Source: a virus
Virus record (IMG/VR): IMGVR_UViG_3300008216_000051
Span: 1-29,767 of that record
Strand: one strand, 5' to 3'
Length of the DNA stretch: 29,767 nt
Shown piece after piece: positions 11,624 to 28,194 of this stretch. How positions within the stretch are numbered: position 1 is the stretch's first letter; every line of letters starts with the position of its first letter. Both the position numbers and the translations under genes were made by a program. The notes beneath the pieces are model-generated. The model saw nothing but the letters and a program-made list of their open reading frames with translations, ran no database searches and was not told the origin of the DNA.

Positions 11624-12030
11624 AAATTAAAATTACATTTCTTAACAAGTTCATCAACAGTTTCTTTACCAAGAATCTGAAGAGATTCTATTATAGCTAA
11701 CTCTAATCCCTCCTTTGATATATCTATAGCTTTATCACTCTTTGCTCCTCGTACTCTTGATAATAGCTCCAGTGCTTTAATGGCACTGTTAGTGTGTCCA
11801 TTTGCCTTGGCAAACGTATATTGATTTTCAATTTCACTTATAACATCAATGTTAGTTTCTAGTTCATTCTCAAGATCAGCTATCCTTTCTACTATCTCGT
11901 CGTTTTTAAGCATACGATATCCCTGATTATATGCTGAACGTGGTGCATATCCAGCAGCCTTCGCTGCTTCAGTGGCATTACGATGTAGAATATAGGCTTG
12001 AGCAAACCTTTCTTGTTTATCTGTTAGCAT
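11620..12030 (-). CDS. terS: Terminase small subunit (136 aa)
   Basis: DNA-recognition subunit of the packaging motor. The N-terminus LTDKQERFAQAYILHRNATE followed by AAKAAGYAPRSAYNQGYRML is the helix-turn-helix start of the Terminase_2 family; a coiled-coil-like central segment (about residues 50-95) would form the oligomer core. Length is normal for the family. The large subunit is not in this window, and small and large subunits are therefore probably not adjacent: the visible virion genes run on the other strand. The ATG lies inside the end of the upstream GIY-YIG gene (14-base overlap) with no strong ribosome site, so translation probably depends on coupling. The stop overlaps the lipoprotein ATG. 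Confidence 0.88.
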   Translation of the reverse strand: MLTDKQERFAQAYILHRNATEAAKAAGYAPRSAYNQGYRMLKNDEIVERIADLENELETNIDVISEIENQYTFAKANGHTNSAIKALELLSRVRGAKSDKAIDISKEGLELAIIESLQILGKETVDELVKKCNFNL

Positions 12031-12646
12031 TTGATAGTCTATATATTTCGTGATCAGGCATATATGTATATGTTAATAGATCTTCCAAAGAAGAGTGAGT
12101 TAGGTCAGAAAGAAGAGGTAATAGATAGTTTTTTGATGTATTTATAGTTTCTAAAAAATATTCAACTGCCTTATTTTTATTTACATAAAACCATTCACTT
12201 TTAGATTGACTGCAATACTTAGAGAAGGTTGAAATAAGATGTCTTTCTAATAGTTTATAATGAGAAACTTGCTCTTTTTTTAAGTAAGAAAAATTATCTT
12301 CGGGAGCATAACTATTATATTGTTTTAATCGTTCTTTTGGATATTTTGTCATTCCAACTTTTACCCAACCTTCATAACTTTTATTTACAATACAATATAT
12401 ATATCCTTCTCGTGATATTATATCTTCTCTAAGACAATGTTCCCATTCAGGATTATTCCATTTCTTTAAAAGAAAATTTCTTTTTAATCTAGCTGCTTCA
12501 ATATCTCTAGTTTGTAAACTAATACGATATTGTTTACCATAATTACTAAATCGTTTTTGAAACCAATAGACACCATCTCGTTGATACATATATTTTGTAT
12601 CTATATTCTTATCCTTTATATATAGGTCTTTTACAATTTTAGACAT
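12017..12646 (-). CDS. Integrase-type N-domain fused to T5orf172 GIY-YIG nuclease domain (209 aa)
   Basis: Residues about 18-62 (YQRDGVYWFQKRF, then RISLQTRDIEAARLKR) look like the small N-terminal DNA-binding domain of tyrosine recombinases (DUF6538/Arm type). No recombinase catalytic domain follows. Instead residues about 80-157 match the T5orf172/MUG113 branch of the GIY-YIG nucleases: GYIYCI, WVKVGMTKYPKERLKQY (with Arg106), a glutamate in LLERHLI (E134) and EWFYV. It may be a site-directed DNA-cutting protein or a mobile endonuclease. Start and holin stop overlap as TAATG, and its end overlaps terminase small subunit by 14 bases, so it sits inside the late operon. A regulatory DNA-binding role is the alternative. 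Confidence 0.78.
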   Translation of the reverse strand: MSKIVKDLYIKDKNIDTKYMYQRDGVYWFQKRFSNYGKQYRISLQTRDIEAARLKRNFLLKKWNNPEWEHCLREDIISREGYIYCIVNKSYEGWVKVGMTKYPKERLKQYNSYAPEDNFSYLKKEQVSHYKLLERHLISTFSKYCSQSKSEWFYVNKNKAVEYFLETINTSKNYLLPLLSDLTHSSLEDLLTYTYMPDHEIYRLSNANR

Positions 12647-18201: not shown

Positions 18202-20153
18202 GTCAGATCCACAATCTCACACGATCCAGCAGTACAGGCAAGCTCTTGTGAGCCTGTAGTATTATCTTCCTTCTCAAATTCCTGTAACCGTGACCAATCA
18301 ATAGCTTTCTTAGGCATCATACTCTTAGCCTTGAAGTATTCTTCCTTATTAAGTTCCTGATATGGAGCTTGCTTATAGGTATGATCTGAATAGGGAAGGA
18401 AAGAAACTCCTGATAGATGATCAAAGTTTTTCCAGCACCATGCACCGACTTCTATCCATTCATTTTCCTGTACGGATATGGTAACACTTGGCTTATGTTC
18501 ACACCAGTATTGAGCATATGTCTTCCATATCTCCAGTTGTTGCATGGCACTCATATCATTTCTGAATTTGGAATCTGGATCTGATTTTATGGGGAAGGAA
18601 AAGACAGACGTATGTTCAGGATTCATAATGTCAGGCTCATTGGGAATGCCATATTCTTTCATAAAGATGGTAAGGGGATCTTTAACATCTGCTCTAACAG
18701 TACGAATATAATAAGGAGAATGTCTGGCATGAATACCACTGGAACTATTTACCAGTTGCGATACTGTGCCGGAAGGTTTGATACAGGTAATGGCAGTTGA
18801 CTGAGGAATGCCAAGTTTCTCTGCCCATTTCTTATTGGTACTGATGGCAACATTACGTAGATACGTTAAGGTATCTTCCAAGAAAGGAACCTTGGCAGAG
18901 TAATCTAAATGTTCAATTGGGAAATTAAGTAGCTTGCAATCCATGATGCCAGTAAGGGACACACCAAGCAATCTTTCTTCTTCCGTATTATCTCTCCATC
19001 TCTTTCTAAGATATCCAAAGTTTGTGAGAGTGGATTGAATAGTACCAAGTAATGTAGCTACACGTATCTTACGTGCCAAACTATTTCTATCATCTGCTGG
19101 TCTGCATATAACTTCTGTTAGATTACAGAATTGATTGGGACGTAGTATGATCTCTGAACAGGGATTAGTCCCAAAGTTAATATCAGATATCCTTCGTCCA
19201 TTCTGTGCTGCCTTCATCTGTGCTGATTGACGGTTGAAGATACCACGCTCACCACTCTTGCTTTCATAAAGAGCTTGCCACTCGTTCATGAATACTCCAG
19301 TATCAGGACGCTCAGTATATACAGCAGAGTTATTTGCCAAGGCTCTTTCTGGATTTGTCATATGCCAAGCACCTGACTTGGAAGCTCTCATACGAGCGTC
19401 TGACAAATTAGATAAAGATATCAGAGCAGATCTTCGTACTCCTCCCACCACCACAACCTCACCAATCTTGCATACTATATCATGACATTCAATGGAGCTT
19501 AACTTCCTGCCTCTGGCTTCACTGAACTTACGAATAGTAAAATCAAATAGATCTATCAATGGTTGTGGGCCACTGGCTCTACCACCAAAGGTCTTTAGTC
19601 TTGCACCGGCAGGACGTACTTTGCTGGCATCTATCTTGGGGATACGATTGCTATAGAGATAAGATATCAGATCTTTAAATGCTCTGGTCCAGCCTTCTTT
19701 GGAATCAGCTATGCTAATCACGTCATCCGTATGTTCAAACTCCTGATCTGGTATCGTAGGTAATTCATTTACATATTGTCTCTCAACAGAGAAGCCTACA
19801 CCAGTACCATTCATAAGAATATACAATATCTCATCAAAGGATTTAGGATTGTCAACTGAAAGGTAGGCACAATTATATCCAGATATATTCTCACGTTCCA
19901 GTGCTGGTCCGGCAGTCATAAGAGATCTCATACTTGGCATTACTTCCAAGGATAGGATAGAGTTCTTTATGGTGCTCCAATCTTTGGTATCAAGCTGGTT
20001 CTTTACTCCAAGATTATTCTCCACATGATTGCGAAAGAAATTAATTAATCTGCTGACGGTTTCATCCCATGTTTCTCTACGTCCTTCATCTTCCAGCCAT
20101 CTTGAGTAACGGGACAGATAGATAAAAGACTGATACTCAGTTGGTAGGTTCAT
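18198..20153 (-). CDS. nrdJ: Adenosylcobalamin-dependent (class II) ribonucleoside-triphosphate reductase (651 aa)
   Basis: Makes deoxynucleotides using coenzyme B12, without oxygen. The active-site motif is NPCSEI (thiyl Cys332, with Asn330 and Glu334), followed eleven residues later by Cys343; Cys95 lies in YNCAYLS. The eleven-residue spacing between the thiyl and redox cysteine equals that of the Lactobacillus leichmannii enzyme. The C-terminal shuttle pair is CTAGSC (Cys640/645). This matches the monomeric RTPR form. The frame extends five codons upstream, but GGGGAG seven bases before the ATG at 20153 favours that start. It overlaps DUF3310 by 17 bases upstream and the cupin by four downstream. 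The enzyme needs host cobalamin. Confidence 0.95.
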   Translation of the reverse strand: MNLPTEYQSFIYLSRYSRWLEDEGRRETWDETVSRLINFFRNHVENNLGVKNQLDTKDWSTIKNSILSLEVMPSMRSLMTAGPALERENISGYNCAYLSVDNPKSFDEILYILMNGTGVGFSVERQYVNELPTIPDQEFEHTDDVISIADSKEGWTRAFKDLISYLYSNRIPKIDASKVRPAGARLKTFGGRASGPQPLIDLFDFTIRKFSEARGRKLSSIECHDIVCKIGEVVVVGGVRRSALISLSNLSDARMRASKSGAWHMTNPERALANNSAVYTERPDTGVFMNEWQALYESKSGERGIFNRQSAQMKAAQNGRRISDINFGTNPCSEIILRPNQFCNLTEVICRPADDRNSLARKIRVATLLGTIQSTLTNFGYLRKRWRDNTEEERLLGVSLTGIMDCKLLNFPIEHLDYSAKVPFLEDTLTYLRNVAISTNKKWAEKLGIPQSTAITCIKPSGTVSQLVNSSSGIHARHSPYYIRTVRADVKDPLTIFMKEYGIPNEPDIMNPEHTSVFSFPIKSDPDSKFRNDMSAMQQLEIWKTYAQYWCEHKPSVTISVQENEWIEVGAWCWKNFDHLSGVSFLPYSDHTYKQAPYQELNKEEYFKAKSMMPKKAIDWSRLQEFEKEDNTTGSQELACTAGSCEIVDLT

Positions 20154-20371: not shown

Positions 20372-20794
20372 TCATTCCTCTCCTTTATTCAGCCATTCTA
20401 TAGCTTTTGTTAAAAGATTTGTATCGTCCCTTAATAAGCCCATTCCAGTGTTACATCTATGACAAAGATATCCTCTGACTTTTCCAGTTATGTGACAATG
20501 ATCTACATTCCATGAATGTCCAGCCCTACTAATTCCATCTTGTTTTTTCCCACAAATGGGACATTCATAATTTTCATTAGGATGTCTATGTTTATCTTTA
20601 TATAATTTTATTATTAGGGAATGTTTGTTTTTACATTCTCTACAAGTATGCTTTCTGCCTTTGTAAGCCTGACTATCTATTGGAAATAATTCCAAAGGCT
20701 TTTGCTCATTGCATTCTATACAAATTCTGCTATTATCATCATCTACTACCTCTTCTTTTATCTCATAAAATAAATTAAGTTGTTCGATTTCCAT
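20372..20794 (-). CDS. Recombination endonuclease VII family protein (140 aa)
   Basis: Predicted HNH/His-Me-finger nuclease that cuts branched DNA before packaging, as T4 gp49 does. The core is CPICGK (Cys78/81), NVDHCHITGKVRGYLCHRCN (Asp98, His99, Cys111/114, Asn115) and a C-terminal AIEWL helix. Upstream an additional pair of CxxC (CIEC at 25-28 and CREC at 51-54) forms a second zinc knuckle, absent from the minimal family domain. AGGA lies eight bases before the ATG. It lies in the replication block with one base to DUF3310. An HNH mobile endonuclease is less likely because of the close family match. Confidence 0.88.
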   Translation of the reverse strand: MEIEQLNLFYEIKEEVVDDDNSRICIECNEQKPLELFPIDSQAYKGRKHTCRECKNKHSLIIKLYKDKHRHPNENYECPICGKKQDGISRAGHSWNVDHCHITGKVRGYLCHRCNTGMGLLRDDTNLLTKAIEWLNKGEE

Positions 20795-20796
20795 AT

Positions 20797-21150
20797 TTAT
20801 TTTCCTGATAGTATCTGATATATTCTGTATTGAAAGTTAGACTTCTTCTTTGAGTTGATAACATCATAAGCAAAGCCCCTTACACGGGAAGGTTCTATAC
20901 CAGCCTGATCACATACAAATTCAAAGTTCTCACATGTTACACCAATGCTACAGAAAAACCAAGCAGTAGCTCTATCCTTATTTATCTTCTTACGTCTGGC
21001 AGTAGCCTTATCCTTGTTTATCTTGTTCAATTTATTGGAGGCATCCAACAGGGCTTGTATGATTACGGCCAAGTACAATCGTCGCTCTGGTTCTTCATGG
21101 TCAAACAGAACTATAGGATCTACAAATATATCTGGATCATCGTCTTTCAT
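20797..21150 (-). CDS. Phage protein of unknown function with internal duplication (117 aa)
   Basis: The core pattern, PERRLYLAVIIQALLDAS followed by ATAWFFCS and FEFVCDQAGIEPSRVRGFAY, resembles a family of small phage proteins whose C-terminal part looks like a helix-turn-helix; no function is established. Between the two core parts the peptide KINKDKATA (residues 43-51) is repeated as KINKDRATA (residues 55-63). The ATG overlaps the stop of the GIY-YIG gene as ATGA, and its end lies two bases before the endonuclease VII start. A DNA-binding role is a guess from the helix-turn-helix-like end. Confidence 0.75.
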   Translation of the reverse strand: MKDDDPDIFVDPIVLFDHEEPERRLYLAVIIQALLDASNKLNKINKDKATARRKKINKDRATAWFFCSIGVTCENFEFVCDQAGIEPSRVRGFAYDVINSKKKSNFQYRIYQILSGK

Positions 21151-21947
21151 TCTTCTTTCTTTTCTTTGCGCCGTCTTTTCTTTTGAGCCTCAGACATTTT
21201 CTTTCTCTCTTCAGGATCTCTAAATCTTTTCTTTGCATACTCAGATCTTTTCTTTCTATACTCAGGATCTTTCACAACTTTTTGAAATGTTTCAGAATTT
21301 TTTATAGACTCAGATGTTTTCTTTCTCTCTTCAGGATCTTCATATCTTTTCTTTGTAGCCTCAGACATTTTCTTTCTCTCTTCAGGATCTCTAAATCTTT
21401 TCTTTTGAGACTCAGATGTTTTCTTTCTCTGTTCAGGATTTTCATATCTTTTCTTTTGAGACTCAGACAGTTTCTTTCTCTGTTCAGGATCTTCAAATTG
21501 CTTCTTTGCAGACTCAGACAAGTTCTTTCTATATTCAGGATCTTGATAGCTCTCAACAGGGCGATAGAACTTACCACCTACTCGTGAGTTATAGTAGGCA
21601 TGTTCCTCTGAGCCTTCCAGAGTAGAGGACAGTACATTGTGTTTCATCTGATAATACAGTTCATAGTATCGGAGACTACGCCTGTTCTTATATTCAGCTA
21701 TGATCTCAAACTTAAAATGCTTCTTACCTATCTCCTCTATATCTTTTGACAACCACTTGGAAGAACCTGCATATGTTTTCCAATCAGATTCCTTCTCCTT
21801 CATACGACTATAGATTAGATACTGTTTACATCCTATGTATGCCTTACCATTGCGAAGGTTGGTAATGATATACACGAATCCAAACTTATCCAAGTCAGGA
21901 ATAAATGCCTTACCACTACCAACCATCAACCAATGGTGATCTACCAA
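21147..21947 (-). CDS. GIY-YIG endonuclease with seven NUMOD3-like repeats (266 aa)
   Basis: The N-terminal nuclease domain starts with FGFVYIITN and GKAYIGCKQY (VYI 25-27, YIG 37-39), then WKTYAGSSKWL, KHFKFEIIAEY and YYELYYQ with catalytic-type Glu96; it resembles Seg-type phage endonucleases. Residues 136-260 are seven tandem 17-residue units of the form DPExRKKxSExxKKRxx, similar to the NUMOD3 DNA-binding motif, followed by a basic tail. It is probably a free-standing homing endonuclease. The frame opens with TTG at 21947, overlapping the exonuclease gene by seven bases; an ATG at 21926 is the alternative start and neither has a strong ribosome site. Both starts keep the full nuclease domain. 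Confidence 0.85.
   Translation of the reverse strand: MVDHHWLMVGSGKAFIPDLDKFGFVYIITNLRNGKAYIGCKQYLIYSRMKEKESDWKTYAGSSKWLSKDIEEIGKKHFKFEIIAEYKNRRSLRYYELYYQMKHNVLSSTLEGSEEHAYYNSRVGGKFYRPVESYQDPEYRKNLSESAKKQFEDPEQRKKLSESQKKRYENPEQRKKTSESQKKRFRDPEERKKMSEATKKRYEDPEERKKTSESIKNSETFQKVVKDPEYRKKRSEYAKKRFRDPEERKKMSEAQKKRRRKEKKEE
21168..21542 (-). repeat. Tandem 51-base coding repeat (about 7 units)
   Basis: Seven imperfect units encode 17-residue NUMOD3-like motifs at residues 136-260 of the GIY-YIG protein; unit 5 has six extra residues and is degenerate. On the plus strand the same array appears as recurring ttctttctctcttcaggatc. It is a protein repeat, not a CRISPR: there are no spacers. Confidence 0.9.
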
Positions 21948-22869: not shown

Positions 22870-23343
22870 TTAAGAGGCGAAGGGGATATCGTCATCCCCC
22901 TCGTCACTGGAGAAACCACCTTCCACAACATCAAAAGCCTCATCAGCTTCTGTATTATAAGGAACAAGGTCCACTACCTGCACCGCACGTAGATCAGCAC
23001 TCACTCCTTTGTTACCCTTAAACTCCCACTCATAGGTCGTGTAGTGTACGTTAACCTTTGAGCCATTTCCAATAAGAGTATTGGTCATGGTACGCTTCTG
23101 ACCATCAACAAGATCAGGAGCACGATTGAGAGAACCATCCTTCCGACGAACCTTACGCTTGATTGAAACAAAATCTCCACGCTCGTCATCCTTATTCTTG
23201 ACGGTCAGACCATCCTTCTCAACGACAGCAAGACTCTTCTTGTCAAGGTTTGTAACATCAACAGACCACACACCATCCGAATCAAAGGTGGTGTTAGGGT
23301 TAGCAATAGCCGCCCAATAAGCGGTTCCAGAAATTACTGACAT
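22870..23343 (-). CDS. Single-stranded DNA-binding protein, T7 gp2.5-like (157 aa)
   Basis: Coats single-stranded DNA during replication. The N-terminus SVISGTAYWAAIANPNTTF resembles T7-like phage SSBs (gp2.5), followed by an OB-fold-like pattern of beta strands and YTTYEWEFKGNKGVSADLRA. The C-terminus is acidic and ends in DEGDDDIPFAS, which contains DDDIPF, the tip with which bacterial SSB recruits partner proteins, plus two extra residues. AGGAG precedes the ATG by ten bases. A near-consensus promoter lies just upstream and a terminator-like hairpin just downstream, so it is probably expressed as its own strong unit. Length is shorter than T7 gp2.5. Confidence 0.88.
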   Translation of the reverse strand: MSVISGTAYWAAIANPNTTFDSDGVWSVDVTNLDKKSLAVVEKDGLTVKNKDDERGDFVSIKRKVRRKDGSLNRAPDLVDGQKRTMTNTLIGNGSKVNVHYTTYEWEFKGNKGVSADLRAVQVVDLVPYNTEADEAFDVVEGGFSSDEGDDDIPFAS

Positions 23344-23380: not shown

Positions 23381-23409
23381 ATTATCGCATAAACGGTTCA
23401 ACATGTCAA
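23381..23409 (-). promoter_or_regulatory. Sigma-70-type promoter before SSB
   Basis: On the minus strand TTGACA (23409-23404), 17 bases, then GATAAT (23386-23381), with TGC directly before GATAAT as extended -10. Expected transcription start near 23374 and leader of about 31 bases with AGGAG. It has the same boxes and spacing as the promoter before hsp20. It lies between the palindrome after the polymerase gene and the SSB ATG. Confidence 0.87.
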
Positions 23410-23428: not shown

Positions 23429-23479
23429 CTAATTAAACCGTATGTAGTACGTAAGTACTACCTACATACGGTTAATTAG
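23429..23479. repeat. Palindromic element, copy A (polymerase 3' end)
   Basis: A 51-base inverted repeat. The outer arms are CTAATTAA and TTAATTAG, the middle arms CCGTATGTAG and CTACATACGG, and the core is GTAGTAC GTAA GTACTAC. One extra A lies in the left arm and an extra CTAC in the right arm. The polymerase stop codon lies in the outer arm. No T tract follows on either strand, so it is not a standard terminator. Related to the element at 27621-27670. Confidence 0.88.
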
Positions 23480-25116
23480 TGTGTCGTAGCCCATGTCTCC
23501 CCGTCCTTCCACGTACTATCTAATGGACACTTGAATTTTAGATTGCGTTCCGTATCTTTGATTCCTTCCTTGGTTATAAGTCCGAATTGAGGGATGTCTT
23601 TCTTCGCCACTTCAAACTGGTACTCATCGTGAATGGAGGCTACCAGTTTAACATCCAAACCTTTCCTGTTTACTCTTGATGTCATATTTATAAGCCAATC
23701 TTTACATACACTTGCACCTGCTCCTTGTATTAAAGTATTAAGAGCACTATGAGGTGATCTTGTATGAAGGTATCTACCGTCCACACCTTTGATCTTATGC
23801 CTCTCAGCGGCCTCCTGAACGCTGTTACGGAGCCTTTTAAGGTCAGGCATGTTGGACAGGAACTTATCTATAAGTTCTTTCCCTTTCTTTCTACTGCCAC
23901 CTACAATCTTTCCTATCTTCTCAGCACCTGCTCCATAGAGGAAGGCATATATGAAGGTCTTGGCTTGATCTCTATCTGTTATACCTGCCATCTTCATATT
24001 AGCTGTATGGACATCACCATTCAGGATCTCCTCAGTATAGTCTTTGTTATCCATCAGATGTGCCAGACATCTAAGCTCAAGACCAGAGGCATCTGTACCT
24101 ACAAGTTTATGAGTGTGCGGATTGCTTACCGTCCAGCAATCCCTACATTCAAAGCCGAAAGGACTACGTACTGCTGGTATCTGAGCCATGTTAGGACTCA
24201 TGTGTGCCATTCGTCCTGTAATAGTTCTTAATGTAAGAACTCTGCCATGTACTCTGCCCGTGTTATCCTTATAGGCATCAATCCAAGACTGCACTTGAGC
24301 TATTCTCTTTTGCAACAAGAAGTAACGGGAGAATTTCTGAGCTTCTTCCATGTCAATTTTATTGAGGATCTCCTCACTAACAATCACATTACCTTTGTCG
24401 GTAAAGTCTTTTGGTTCCCAATCCAATGCCTGAAGACGATCAGCTATCTGCTGTCTTGATCCTATGTTAAATGGGATCAGCTTAGTCTTTGTCTTTAATT
24501 CTACAACTGTAGGTTTGAACGTAACCTTTGACCAGTTCACAAGCTCATGTGCCTCATCAGACAAGCGAGATAACAAACCTATGGTCTTTCGTATATCCAA
24601 AGCAAATCCATTTGTTTCCTGTTGGTCTATGATAGTTCTTATCTTATGTTCCATGCTAATGGATTTCTCTGAGAACTTTCTCCCTTCTTGTTTTAACTTT
24701 TTATATACCTGTTCTGTTAGGTCAACATCATTCTTACAATACTCCAGCATGTCTTCTGTATACGTAGTAAAGTTCTCATGCTCTCCCTTTGGGTAATGTA
24801 GAGTTTCTCCCCATGCTTTTAAACTATGTCCTCTTTCCCTAACCGGGTTAAAGAGTTGTGACATAACAAGTGTATCTATCATTTGATTTATCTTGATATC
24901 AACTCCAAACACTCTACGAAGAATGGGAACATCAAATGATATACCATTGTGCATGATAAAGTTATCTACCTTATCACACCAAGGCTTGAACTGATCCAAG
25001 TTATTGTGATCCCATACATGTACCTGAGATGTTTCAAGATCCTTCGCTACGATGCAATGGATCTTTGCCTTTTGTGTATCCAAGGAATCTGTTTCTATAT
25101 CAAGTACTACAGTCAT
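23476..25116 (-). CDS. polA: Family A DNA polymerase with 3'-5' exonuclease domain (546 aa)
   Basis: Replicative polymerase. The exonuclease domain has DIETD (Asp6/Glu8), NGISFDVPIL and YCKNDVDLTEQVY. Polymerase motif A is GTDASGLELR (Asp342), motif B RDQAKTFIYAFLYG (Arg382, Lys386, Tyr390) and motif C IHDEYQFEV (Asp497/Glu498). Tyr390 is at the position of E. coli Phe762 and T7 Tyr526. At 546 residues it is shorter than T7 polymerase (704), and no thioredoxin-binding insertion can be recognised by eye. The frame extends to a GTG at 25143, but the ATG at 25116 overlaps the Fe-S carrier stop as ATGA and places the exonuclease motif at the normal distance. Confidence 0.95.
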   Translation of the reverse strand: MTVVLDIETDSLDTQKAKIHCIVAKDLETSQVHVWDHNNLDQFKPWCDKVDNFIMHNGISFDVPILRRVFGVDIKINQMIDTLVMSQLFNPVRERGHSLKAWGETLHYPKGEHENFTTYTEDMLEYCKNDVDLTEQVYKKLKQEGRKFSEKSISMEHKIRTIIDQQETNGFALDIRKTIGLLSRLSDEAHELVNWSKVTFKPTVVELKTKTKLIPFNIGSRQQIADRLQALDWEPKDFTDKGNVIVSEEILNKIDMEEAQKFSRYFLLQKRIAQVQSWIDAYKDNTGRVHGRVLTLRTITGRMAHMSPNMAQIPAVRSPFGFECRDCWTVSNPHTHKLVGTDASGLELRCLAHLMDNKDYTEEILNGDVHTANMKMAGITDRDQAKTFIYAFLYGAGAEKIGKIVGGSRKKGKELIDKFLSNMPDLKRLRNSVQEAAERHKIKGVDGRYLHTRSPHSALNTLIQGAGASVCKDWLINMTSRVNRKGLDVKLVASIHDEYQFEVAKKDIPQFGLITKEGIKDTERNLKFKCPLDSTWKDGETWATTH

Positions 25117-25430
25117 ACGGCAAAACTTTCTCCACATCCACACTGAGATGTGGCATTAGGATTTTTAAATACTATGTACGAACCATTAATACCATCTGTA
25201 TAATCTATAGTTACACCCATAAGAAACATCATAGCCTCTGGTCTAACATATAAACTACCATCAAGCAATGGTATAACATCATGCGCTTCAGGGATATCTT
25301 CAATCAAATCCCACTCATAGGTAAAGCCAGCACAACCACCACCCTTCACACCAAGTCCTATACCTTTAACATCTTGATCTCTAACTATACGTGATAAATG
25401 TTCATTAGCTTCTTCAGTGATACTGATCAT
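25113..25430 (-). CDS. iscA: A-type iron-sulfur carrier, HesB/IscA family (105 aa)
   Basis: Receives and delivers Fe-S clusters. The three cluster-binding cysteines are present: Cys33 in GGGCAGF and Cys97/Cys99 in SQCGCGESF, the same spacing as in IscA/ErpA. Full family length. Phage-borne A-type carriers are known from marine phages and count as auxiliary metabolic genes. GGAG lies six bases before the ATG. It overlaps the polymerase start by four bases and follows a nuclease gene after nine bases, so it is tightly embedded in the replication operon. A likely client on the same strand is the cysteine-rich exonuclease; a host target is equally possible. Confidence 0.95.
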   Translation of the reverse strand: MISITEEANEHLSRIVRDQDVKGIGLGVKGGGCAGFTYEWDLIEDIPEAHDVIPLLDGSLYVRPEAMMFLMGVTIDYTDGINGSYIVFKNPNATSQCGCGESFAV

Positions 25431-25439
25431 GGAACTCTC

Positions 25440-25964
25440 CTATGCAGGATACTTTACATTTATGAATGCATCTGTAATTTTTTCACTGCGTTCTTCTTCT
25501 AAACCTTTCAGATCTGAATCTTTCATGTTAACTATATGAGCATCGTTGACATCTATATGATAGAACTTCTCATTGGATGCATACCTATTATTCAAAGTAC
25601 CAACTCTTGAATCTCTAACAACTTGACCATCAATAAACCATGCTTGCTTACAATCACAACGAAAGATAACAAACGTAAGAATCCCTAATGAACCATAACG
25701 AACCCACTTATTTATAATCTTTGATTTTCTATAGGGAATACGTACCTCTTCCCATACATTAGGCCACTCTCTAATCCAGCTATATTTAATTTCTGTTTCA
25801 AAGAAAGCTGGCCTGTTATCTTTAAGACAGGTAATGTCAACTCCATAATTCTCTTCTGGATTTATAAATTTATATCCATTTCTTTCCAGCCATGCAATCA
25901 TAACTCCCTTTGATAAAGGATCTGCTTCATCATAGAGTTTCTTATCAAACTTCTTAGTAGCCAT
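25440..25964 (-). CDS. PD-(D/E)XK-like nuclease (174 aa)
   Basis: The segment NYGVDITCLKDNRPAFFETE followed by IKYSW has the Asp...Glu-x-Lys pattern (VDI, then ETEIK) of the PD-(D/E)XK nucleases, preceded by a helix with GYKF and followed by strands (ILTFVIFRCDCKQAWFI). It is about the size of small phage endonucleases. T7 gene 3 endonuclease I, which resolves Holliday junctions, also has this fold, but I see no direct similarity beyond the core. Start and primase-helicase stop overlap as TAATG. The C-terminal 50 residues are charged and unassigned. A restriction-type or structure-specific nuclease is most likely. Confidence 0.78.
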   Translation of the reverse strand: MATKKFDKKLYDEADPLSKGVMIAWLERNGYKFINPEENYGVDITCLKDNRPAFFETEIKYSWIREWPNVWEEVRIPYRKSKIINKWVRYGSLGILTFVIFRCDCKQAWFIDGQVVRDSRVGTLNNRYASNEKFYHIDVNDAHIVNMKDSDLKGLEEERSEKITDAFINVKYPA

Positions 25965-27604
25965 TAATCATCTCCTACGTCAAATGGATTTTCAATCTCA
26001 GTCATTCTACCAGTATCCTTGTTATAAAACAAGTGCGTTGCAACTCCCGTATCACCTGTGTATCTATTCTTTAATATACGAATGGTGGTTGTATTGGATA
26101 CGATTGGATCATCATCCTGTTGATTTCTTTCCAATCCAATAACACTATCACTAAGATGTCCTATTGAAGCCGATCCTCTCAAATGACTTAAATTTATTTC
26201 TCTTCCATCTTCATGTCCACGATCACCGGAAGGTCTACGCAGATGAGATACCAGCAGTAAACAGATGCCGGTCTGCTCCACAAGAGATCTTAACTTGGTC
26301 ATTAGAATATCTATAGATTTTCTTTCATCTGTATCCTCTTGTCCTGAGACAAGTATGCTGAGATGATCAAGACAGATCCATTTACAGTCAAGTGCCTGTG
26401 CCATGAACCTTACTCGTGCAAGGATCTCTTCATTATCTATTGATCCAAAGTGATCAAAGGCAAAGAACCTGCCTGAGTCAATGGTATCCTCTTGGAATTT
26501 CTCCAACTGTTCTTGTTCAAACCCATCTCTGATTTCCTTTATGTACAGACGAGCACTGGCTTCAACTGACATGATGTTCCATGCAGTATTCTTTACGCTC
26601 TCTTCAAGAGCAAGTATACCTATGTTGTCATTCGTATTGCGAAGGAAGTGATGGAGTAGCTCTCGCATGATGCTACTTTTACCCATTCCAGCACCAGAGG
26701 TGAAACAAATTAACTCCCCTGTTCTCATACCATAGGTCTTTTCATTCATCTTAGGCCAAGGATAGAGACAAGTCTCACAATAGTCCTCTTCATATAAGGA
26801 CGATCCTATATCTTTGAGGTTAACTATGCCAGCAGGTGTGAATGGTTTCGCATTCCACCAGCAATCATTGAAGGCACTACGCTGTCCCATCTTGAGATAT
26901 TCATTAGAATCTTTATGATCAAGACGAACAATCTTTGCCTTGTTGGGAGAGAACAACTGAGCTACCTGTTCAGCAGCTTCCTGTCCTTGCCTATCCATAT
27001 CAAAGCATATCACCACGTTCTCAAAGCTATCAAGATAGGTGAATGCTTCCTTGCAATCACGCAAGGCAGAGCCACAACCTGTCTTGATAGATAGTGACGG
27101 CCACTTTGATCCCATTAATTCATAGGCTGACATGGCATCAACTTCGCCTTCGCAGATGGTAACGTACTTACCTTTGGGAGAGAAGATATTCTGTCCGAAT
27201 AGAACTGCATCCGACAGATCACCCTCAACCCACATTCTTTTATCTTTTGTCTGTCTTACTTTGTGACCTATCTGTTCACCTCTCTCGTTAAAGTAACCAT
27301 AAATGTGGTGGGTTATGATAGCACCCTCACTTTTAATCTTGGTACTATATTTCTTTGCAGTTTCAAGAGAGATCTTGCGATCACTTAGCTCGCCCCAATT
27401 CCCCATTGTTTTCATAGGCTTTGCTTCCTGCGTTGGTAATTCAAGAATTGTTCCTTGGTAAAACTGAAGATCTTTTCTGACCTCCTCACCGAATCTTGTT
27501 TGACAACTGAAGCAGAACGAATGCCCTTGTTGGTGGTTGACATTAGCGTCAGACGATCCACACTTAGGACATGGGCCCCTGTCCAGCCATTGCGGTTTAA
27601 TCAT
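25964..27604 (-). CDS. Primase-helicase, T7 gp4-like (546 aa)
   Basis: Bifunctional replication enzyme. The N-terminal zinc-binding domain has CPKC and CFSC (Cys12, 15, 31, 34). The TOPRIM primase core has TICEGEVDAMSAYELMG (Glu152) and VICFDMDRQG (Asp202/204). The RecA-like helicase has Walker A SGAGMGKSS (residues about 303-311), Walker B WICLDHLSIL (Asp413), and LLLVSHLRRP with an RGSASIGHLSDSV motif. Domain order and length equal T7 gene 4A. AGAGGA six bases before the ATG at 27604 is the reason for choosing that start over the ATG five codons upstream. The palindrome at 27621-27670 lies directly before this start. Confidence 0.95.
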   Translation of the reverse strand: MIKPQWLDRGPCPKCGSSDANVNHQQGHSFCFSCQTRFGEEVRKDLQFYQGTILELPTQEAKPMKTMGNWGELSDRKISLETAKKYSTKIKSEGAIITHHIYGYFNERGEQIGHKVRQTKDKRMWVEGDLSDAVLFGQNIFSPKGKYVTICEGEVDAMSAYELMGSKWPSLSIKTGCGSALRDCKEAFTYLDSFENVVICFDMDRQGQEAAEQVAQLFSPNKAKIVRLDHKDSNEYLKMGQRSAFNDCWWNAKPFTPAGIVNLKDIGSSLYEEDYCETCLYPWPKMNEKTYGMRTGELICFTSGAGMGKSSIMRELLHHFLRNTNDNIGILALEESVKNTAWNIMSVEASARLYIKEIRDGFEQEQLEKFQEDTIDSGRFFAFDHFGSIDNEEILARVRFMAQALDCKWICLDHLSILVSGQEDTDERKSIDILMTKLRSLVEQTGICLLLVSHLRRPSGDRGHEDGREINLSHLRGSASIGHLSDSVIGLERNQQDDDPIVSNTTTIRILKNRYTGDTGVATHLFYNKDTGRMTEIENPFDVGDD

Positions 27605-27610
27605 TTTAGT

Positions 27611-27616
27611 TCCTCT
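27611..27616 (-). promoter_or_regulatory. Ribosome binding site deciding the primase-helicase start
   Basis: AGAGGA on the minus strand lies six bases before the ATG at 27604. The upstream in-frame ATG at 27619 has no such site and lies two bases from the palindrome. Confidence 0.7.
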
Positions 27617-27620
27617 CATT

Positions 27621-27670
27621 CTGATTAATCCATATGTAGTACGTAAGTACTACTACATATGGTTAATCAG
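27621..27670. repeat. Palindromic element, copy B (before primase-helicase)
   Basis: A 50-base inverted repeat: outer arms CTGATTAA and TTAATCAG, middle arms CCATATGTAG and CTACATATGG, and core GTAC GTAA GTAC. An extra T lies in the left arm and an extra three bases in the right arm. It lies between the 109-aa gene (stop at 27681) and the primase-helicase. Compared with copy A the arms differ at several positions, and pairing is kept. No sigma-70 promoter or T tract accompanies it. Confidence 0.88.
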
Positions 27671-27680
27671 TTCGTTGGGG

Positions 27681-28010
27681 TTAAACACCCGGCCCCGGCC
27701 AAGTGCCATCTTGAATTTCTCTCATGCGTGTATTCATAGTCTCACGAGTGAAACTATCTGATACAGTACACATCTTTTTTATTGCAGACTTAGGTATTGA
27801 AATAAGTCCACCATACTGTGCTTCACTGGTACTATCAGAGTTATTAATAGACGAAGCTATAGTTATATAAACATCATCCTGATTGACTAACATACCAACA
27901 GTTTTAATTACCATTGGTTTTAAATCTTTAAGTTCCTGTTCACTTTTCCAATCAGCGTCATCATACTCTGCTGAATCAACCCACTCTACTACAATTACTT
28001 TATTATTCAT
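27681..28010 (-). CDS. Phage protein of unknown function (109 aa)
   Basis: Acidic protein. The N-terminus KVIVVEWVDSAEYDDADW and the centre LKPMVIKTVGMLVNQDD, with YGGLISIPKSAI, form a pattern I recall from hypothetical proteins of many tailed phages; no function is known. The frame runs further upstream, but the ATG at 28010 overlaps the previous stop by eight bases and has GGAAGA before it, so I place the start there. A small hairpin-like GGGT...ACCC lies around the stop codon. The palindromic element follows ten bases after the stop. Confidence 0.72.
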   Translation of the reverse strand: MNNKVIVVEWVDSAEYDDADWKSEQELKDLKPMVIKTVGMLVNQDDVYITIASSINNSDSTSEAQYGGLISIPKSAIKKMCTVSDSFTRETMNTRMREIQDGTWPGPGV

Positions 28011-28194
28011 CAGCATCTTCCCATGTATCTTTAACATAATTAGATACAAAAGTTTCCTTATCGGACATGATATCATCAACTTCCAATTTAGCAAAACGCT
28101 TTGATTCACGCAAGGAATAACCTTCCTGCTTGTATTGTCTTGTTATACTACGAAAGAGTTGTTGTCTCTCTCGTTGTAGGAAACTTCTACTCAT
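28003..28194 (-). CDS. Small basic helical protein, unknown (63 aa)
   Basis: Helical, Arg/Lys/Glu-rich, with SFLQRERQQLFRSITRQYKQ at the N-terminus and an acidic tail. No family is recognised. Both ends overlap neighbours by eight bases, which supports a real gene in a tightly packed operon. No transmembrane segment or metal motif is visible. Confidence 0.65.
   Translation of the reverse strand: MSRSFLQRERQQLFRSITRQYKQEGYSLRESKRFAKLEVDDIMSDKETFVSNYVKDTWEDADE

Follow-up and report, generated by a model that had tools for sequence, protein, structure and literature searches.

The locus and its genes

The window, the whole stretch of 29,767 nucleotides that was analysed, carries on its minus strand a replication block that runs from a primase-helicase gene to the gene of a family A DNA polymerase; next comes a gene for a gp2.5-like single-stranded DNA (ssDNA)-binding protein (Table 1). 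Two long palindromes bracket this block, as the first-pass annotation had placed them and as the open reading frames (ORFs) and their PHROG matches bear out. The primase-helicase more likely starts with the ATG at 27604, which has AGAGG in front of it (27616-27612), a few bases beyond the 3' foot of hairpin 2. The polymerase stop codon falls within hairpin 1, in what is its 5' foot when read in gene orientation. The predicted promoter of the gp2.5-like gene, just past hairpin 1, has 11 of 12 consensus matches and a TG extension, and its TTGACA is found at the same place in close relatives.

Table 1. Features of the window discussed in the text.
Feature	Position	Strand	Basis or location
Endonuclease-like gene	12017-12646	minus	
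Endonuclease-like gene	20372-20794	minus	
Endonuclease-like gene	21147-21947	minus	
gp2.5-like ssDNA-binding protein gene	22870-23343	minus	PHROG 112, E 8.5e-14; downstream of hairpin 1
Predicted sigma-70-type promoter TTGACA-17-GATAAT, for the gp2.5-like gene	23381-23409	minus	promoter scan
Hairpin 1	23429-23479	minus	between polymerase stop codon and promoter of gp2.5-like gene
DNA polymerase (family A)	23476-25143	minus	ORF; PHROG 17, E 3e-130
Iron-sulphur cluster assembly protein gene	25113-25430	minus	PF01521, E 6e-15
Primase-helicase	25964-27619	minus	ORF; PHROG 239, E 2e-167
Hairpin 2	27621-27670	minus	directly 5' of ribosome-binding site of primase-helicase gene
Small gene (unknown function)	27681-28109	minus	ORF; PHROG 25889; 3' end about 10 nt before hairpin 2

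The iron-sulphur cluster assembly gene, which lies between the primase and the polymerase and overlaps the start of the latter, is an unusual auxiliary gene in a replication block. The window also includes two GIY-YIG-type endonuclease-like genes (SegE-like; T5orf172) and an endonuclease VII gene.

Read directly, hairpin 1 is CTAATTAAACCGTATGTAGTAC GTAA GTACTACCTACATACGGTTAATTAG and hairpin 2 is CTGATTAATCCATATGTAGTAC GTAA GTACTACTACATATGGTTAATCAG. The earlier description of the pair is exact: the two share the core GTACGTAAGTAC, their arm differences are matched on both sides, each has one extra base in the left arm, and the right arm has four extra bases in hairpin 1 and three in hairpin 2. 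Since the genes at this locus run on the minus strand, the sense loop of both hairpins is TTAC; in gene sense, hairpin 1 has a 4-nt bulge on its 5' side and a 1-nt bulge on its 3' side, and hairpin 2 has a 3-nt bulge on its 5' side. All four single-strand folds (two hairpins, two strands) are better than 200 of 200 dinucleotide shuffles, with z values of -5.0 (sense) and -6.3 (other strand) for hairpin 1 and of -6.8 and -7.3 for hairpin 2.

A family of hairpins between early genes

The two palindromes are almost certainly members of a previously uncatalogued family of hairpins of about 50 nt that lie between early genes. The family is carried by more than 80 contigs of uncultured marine phages. 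Among viral contigs, 18 stretches contain the exact string ATGTAGTACGTAAGTACTAC, and 117 fit a looser pattern that describes the whole architecture; most of the pattern matches are contigs of marine phages whose primase and polymerase link them to the window, and a reversed control pattern has 0 matches in five records. Strong hairpins number 97 in 992 kb of these phages versus 2 in 746 kb of Markov-shuffled sequence. The covariance-model search of relatives that had been proposed at the outset was performed with model R1 (9 bp, a 3-5 nt 5' bulge, 4 bp and a TTAC-type loop), which matches copies in the carrier records searched; hairpin 1 scores 43.2 bits (23438-23471) and hairpin 2 scores 42.3 bits (27630-27662), both copies being in the training set of the model.

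The family appears to be phage-specific. Across 84,980 bacterial and archaeal genomes, the whole-architecture pattern has four matches only, of which three are chance-like and at most one is credible, a weak candidate on the small MAG contig L256. Rfam 15 has no family above the gathering cut-off in the window and, for four many-copy loci, nothing at the hairpins even at E up to 1. Model R1 matches neither the cultured relatives HTVC104P and HTVC115P (Pelagibacter phages) and CRP-9 (Roseobacter phage) nor phage T7, a short-query BLAST against cultured phages gives no credible match, and a literature search found no paper on such hairpins in this phage group. On the primase tree, the family occupies several deep branches with non-carriers between them and is therefore considered old and to have been lost or replaced several times; some of the replacements are other long intergenic hairpins, clear terminators among them.

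Other hairpins are noted in the same group. Close relatives without the TTAC family (L102, L110, L129, L106 and L112) have other long intergenic hairpins at similar gene boundaries, such as TCTCAAGTCTTTTGGGACTTGAGA with A/T tracts. A second class of bulged hairpin, with the apical sequence C-TTA-GCTT...AAGC-AG and a variable loop, occurs in the phages that carry the family (e.g., G001 18695-18740 and 19089-19138; G009 1549 and 3947; L013 4672 and 5131), and some of these lie between A and T tracts, as bidirectional terminators do.

Architecture and covariation

In gene sense, the family layout consists of (i) an outer helix of about 8 bp, which often starts CTAATTAA and thus carries stop codons, (ii) a fixed single mismatch or 1-nt bulge, (iii) a 9-bp helix that is free in sequence, (iv) a 5'-side bulge of 3-5 nt, usually purine-rich (GTAA, GTGA, GGGA, TAGAG), (v) a 4-bp apical stem (GTTC/GAAC, GTAC/GTAC or TATC/GATA), and (vi) a loop that is TTAC in sense and rarely TTGC, TAAC, TTAT, TAC, TGC or TTC. 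The stems vary little in length, 42 of 66 distinct ones having 21-22 bp. A short direct repeat in the 5' strand (GTAG-GTAG, AGT..AGT; e.g., window 23444-23461, minus strand) gives rise to the bulge and makes two slipped pairings possible, a candidate switch.

The first-pass annotation had read the compensated differences between the two palindromes as a mark of selection on pairing, and the relatives strongly uphold this. In a clean alignment of 48 distinct copies, made from trimmed sequences (A3), pairs are kept in 98.6% of cells, two-sided changes number 233 versus 67 in shuffles, and the covariation score is 0.958 versus 0.198. Twelve of the 13 pairs vary on both sides; all nine arm pairs do so with compensation, and the apical core alone is conserved in sequence. 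When partner columns are slid by 1-3 positions, pairing falls to 25-40%. Copy detection required a C-G-closed apical stem and at least six paired bases beside the bulge; thus, the free evidence of covariation sits in pairs 7-9 and beyond, and pairs 7, 8 and 9 are paired in 52, 51 and 48 of 53 copies, respectively, versus about 25 when shuffled. Drifted, unpaired arms, or absence of the element from all relatives, were looked for and did not occur.

Position in phage genomes

Typically, a hairpin fills the gap that opens at the stop codon of a gene and closes just short of the following gene's ribosome-binding site. Many copies overlap or touch the upstream stop codon with the 5' foot and end with the 3' foot 10-16 nt before the next start, and a ribosome-binding-like motif lies within 30 nt of 94 of 115 copies compared to about half in shuffles. 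None of 142 distinct contexts falls inside an ORF of at least 100 aa, the nearest downstream ORF is co-oriented in 122 of 127, and 120 copies are sense versus 2 antisense. Near-complete early regions have 4-9 copies each. Among contigs with an early region (G001, G002, G006, G009, G010 and G012), family hairpins are found in the early and replication block only, and none are found in the structural-gene regions. Because the early genes all share one direction, orientation alone cannot separate action as RNA from action as DNA. The primase hairpin of G009 and G010 comes right after the end of a predicted sigma-70 promoter and would thus form the 5' leader of that mRNA.

Identical hairpins flank one small gene in L015 (919-969 and 1717-1767) and in L150 (6083-6136 and 6349-6402), an arrangement that could allow gene gain or loss by recombination between the copies.

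RNA or DNA

Counted by structural position, G·U makes up 9 of 1184 pairs (0.8%), with 4 A·C pairs; the 9:4 ratio amounts to a strand bias that is not significant (p 0.13). By minimum-energy folding, the G·U fraction of the family is 5%. As a control, nine T7 RNase III sites, at coordinates which we take to be theirs, have 33 G·U among 175 pairs (19%) and varied loops in minimum-energy folds. The near absence of G·U pairs in the family is a useful and testable puzzle in itself.

Loops of the C(GNNA)G and C(GNA)G types make very stable DNA hairpins. At the early promoters of phage N4, a loop-closing C:G pair and a template-strand loop with a 5' G and a 3' A are needed for extrusion, and the non-conserved bases of the stems matter for pairing alone (PMC4496689). 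Read on the template strand, the family loops are GTAA, GCAA, GTTA, GTA, GCA and GAA, all of the form C(GN1-2A)G, with the TTAT sense loop as the sole exception; a rule of this kind for template-strand DNA accounts for the loop variants better than one for sense RNA does. The apical stem, too, survives most often when the template strand is folded as DNA (24 of 80 copies, mean pair probability 0.51) and least often in sense-RNA minimum-energy folds (5 of 80 copies, 0.10), where the energy model may score UNAC loops poorly. Sense-RNA folds favour another apical pairing, and RNA-only folding failed as proof of the apical stem. Loops of the UMAC type are GNRA-like and are present in phage boxB RNAs (PMC12550061). 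The main loop of the family (UUAC) and the rare UAAC fit the wider UNAC class, and a sequence-specific RNA-binding factor is therefore reasonable.

Proposed function and alternatives

The fold that is always kept between early genes points to a switch or marker of early gene expression. It is plausible, and a shade short of probable, that the hairpins are expression-control sites in early polycistronic mRNA, with the loop and bulge bound by a trans-acting factor. Action in the transcript is favoured because of the position and orientation of the copies and the promoter just upstream of the primase hairpin in G009 and G010. Within the early mRNA, the long stem would wall off neighbouring cistrons, and the conserved bulge and GNRA-like apical loop would be presented to a putative RNA-binding factor of phage or host, whose binding may set the processing, stability or translation of the next gene; the hairpin after the polymerase would mark the 3' end of the replication operon. 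Against an RNA-level role stand the scarcity of G·U pairs, a restriction that RNA helices have no need of, the poor retention of the apical stem in sense-RNA folds, the closer fit of the loop variants to the template-strand rule, the confounding of orientation with early-gene confinement, and the finding of no protein partner specific to carriers. DUF932, the only early protein in every testable carrier (20 of 20 with enough upstream sequence), was rejected as the binding partner; it is also in 16 of 23 non-carriers. The DUF932 genes lie a few kb upstream of the primase (e.g., L106 5692-6684 and G001 23948-24853), and nothing in the PDB matches the predicted structure (pLDDT 75). No other shared early gene is found in every carrier and in carriers only.

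A role in DNA is possible but somewhat unlikely, in which the template strand, extruded or as ssDNA, would form a hairpin capped by C(GNNA)G or C(GNA)G and be read by a transcription or recombination protein, much as the virion RNA polymerase of N4 reads its early promoters. The rarity of G·U without significant strand bias, the loop rule shared with N4 extrusion (PMC4496689), the better-kept apical stem in template-strand folds and the restriction to early genes are consistent with such a role; the much shorter hairpins of N4, the predicted sigma-70 promoters, the rule-breaking TTAT loop and the lack of an RNA polymerase gene in searches of limited sensitivity argue against it. These searches found no PF00940 domain (control genomes were silent too, and N4-type enzymes may be missed), motif B in the DNA polymerase only, and no RNA polymerase match of the large virion proteins to PHROGs; no T7-type RNA polymerase emerged from them either. 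That a strictly Watson-Crick template-strand hairpin with C(GN1-2A)G loops marks early-gene starts, in phages without an N4-type RNA polymerase, is unlikely; if true, extruded DNA hairpins would have come to serve as transcription signals a second time, independently. Processing by RNase III, suggested in the first-pass annotation from the T7 example and by which the host enzyme would separate the cistrons, is possible. The intercistronic early-gene position, the size of about 50 nt, the internal mismatch and bulge, and the stem of about two helical turns (21-22 bp in the majority noted above, for an enzyme that calls for about 20 bp or more) all fit, and a phage-encoded enzyme (no gene for which is found in ten records) is not needed. 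The conserved apical loop, which RNase III does not require, the near-pure Watson-Crick pairing and the invariant architecture are unlike T7 sites, which have varied loops and, by the same minimum-energy measure, 19% G·U compared to 5%; RNase III processing is judged decidedly unlikely.

Very unlikely is a fold without function, in which template switching copies arm to arm in a corrected or mobile palindrome. Such copying would account for concerted, nearly pure Watson-Crick change and for the identical hairpins that sometimes flank one gene (L015 919 and 1717; L150 6083 and 6349), but it would erase the bulge, mismatch and loop, which are kept across lineages; furthermore, the position before ribosome-binding sites is fixed, and copies within one genome mostly differ in their arms. 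Transcription terminators or a double-stranded repressor operator, for which the palindromic form speaks, as does the place of hairpin 1, where the polymerase gene ends and a new promoter follows, are barely credible. Ordinary termination had been doubted from the outset, and rightly: five T within 14 nt downstream are found in 0 of 115 copies, and no intrinsic terminator is predicted at either window hairpin. After most copies there is too little room for a promoter, and the earlier suggestion of an operator lacks support, as the arms are free to vary in sequence and pairing alone is kept. The suggested replication start is not supported either, since each near-complete early region has 4-9 copies, each at a gene boundary.

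Whether the RNA-level control site that we prefer or a DNA hairpin proves correct, the family offers a well-delimited signal that recurs across uncultured ocean phages. It would reveal either a novel system in which RNA and protein together control phage early genes or a role that DNA hairpins were not known to play, and the many natural variants of one hairpin already mark the loop, bulge and stem length as the deciding parts.

Comparison with known systems

The placement of the hairpins is of a known kind, while the family itself is new. The early RNase III sites of T7 are likewise hairpins between cistrons, about 50-60 nt long, which separate early genes and also precede the primase and polymerase genes, but they have varied loops and 19% G·U, compared to the nearly fixed loop, fixed bulge and mismatch, and 0.8% G·U of the family. 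The ESAS elements of cluster K mycobacteriophages are multi-copy inverted repeats just upstream of the translation starts of some phage genes and are of unknown function (PMC3203893). They resemble the family in occurring as multiple copies and in placement and differ in their consensus arms, variable 4-13 bp spacer and adjoining 13-bp SAS, compared to the free arms and fixed loop described here; the SAS has no match in the window with up to 2 mismatches allowed.

The virion RNA polymerase promoters of N4 share with the family the early-gene location, the C(G..A)G template-strand loop and stem positions that matter for pairing only (PMC4496689). By contrast, N4 promoters have a short stem and a 3-nt loop, whereas the family has a stem of 21-22 bp and usually a 4-nt loop, and N4 encodes its virion RNA polymerase, whereas none is found in the phages of the family (with limited sensitivity, the PF00940 control being silent). 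The boxB/nut RNA of lambdoid phages, including the UMAC loop of phi21, likewise presents a GNRA-like loop of the UNAC type on a phage RNA hairpin. In nut sites, a boxA lies upstream of boxB; a boxA-like string is in 0 of 115 flanks of the family, with matches in the window at chance level, and the family stem is 21-22 bp long. Lambdoid nut sites occur one per operon, whereas the family has one copy per gene boundary.
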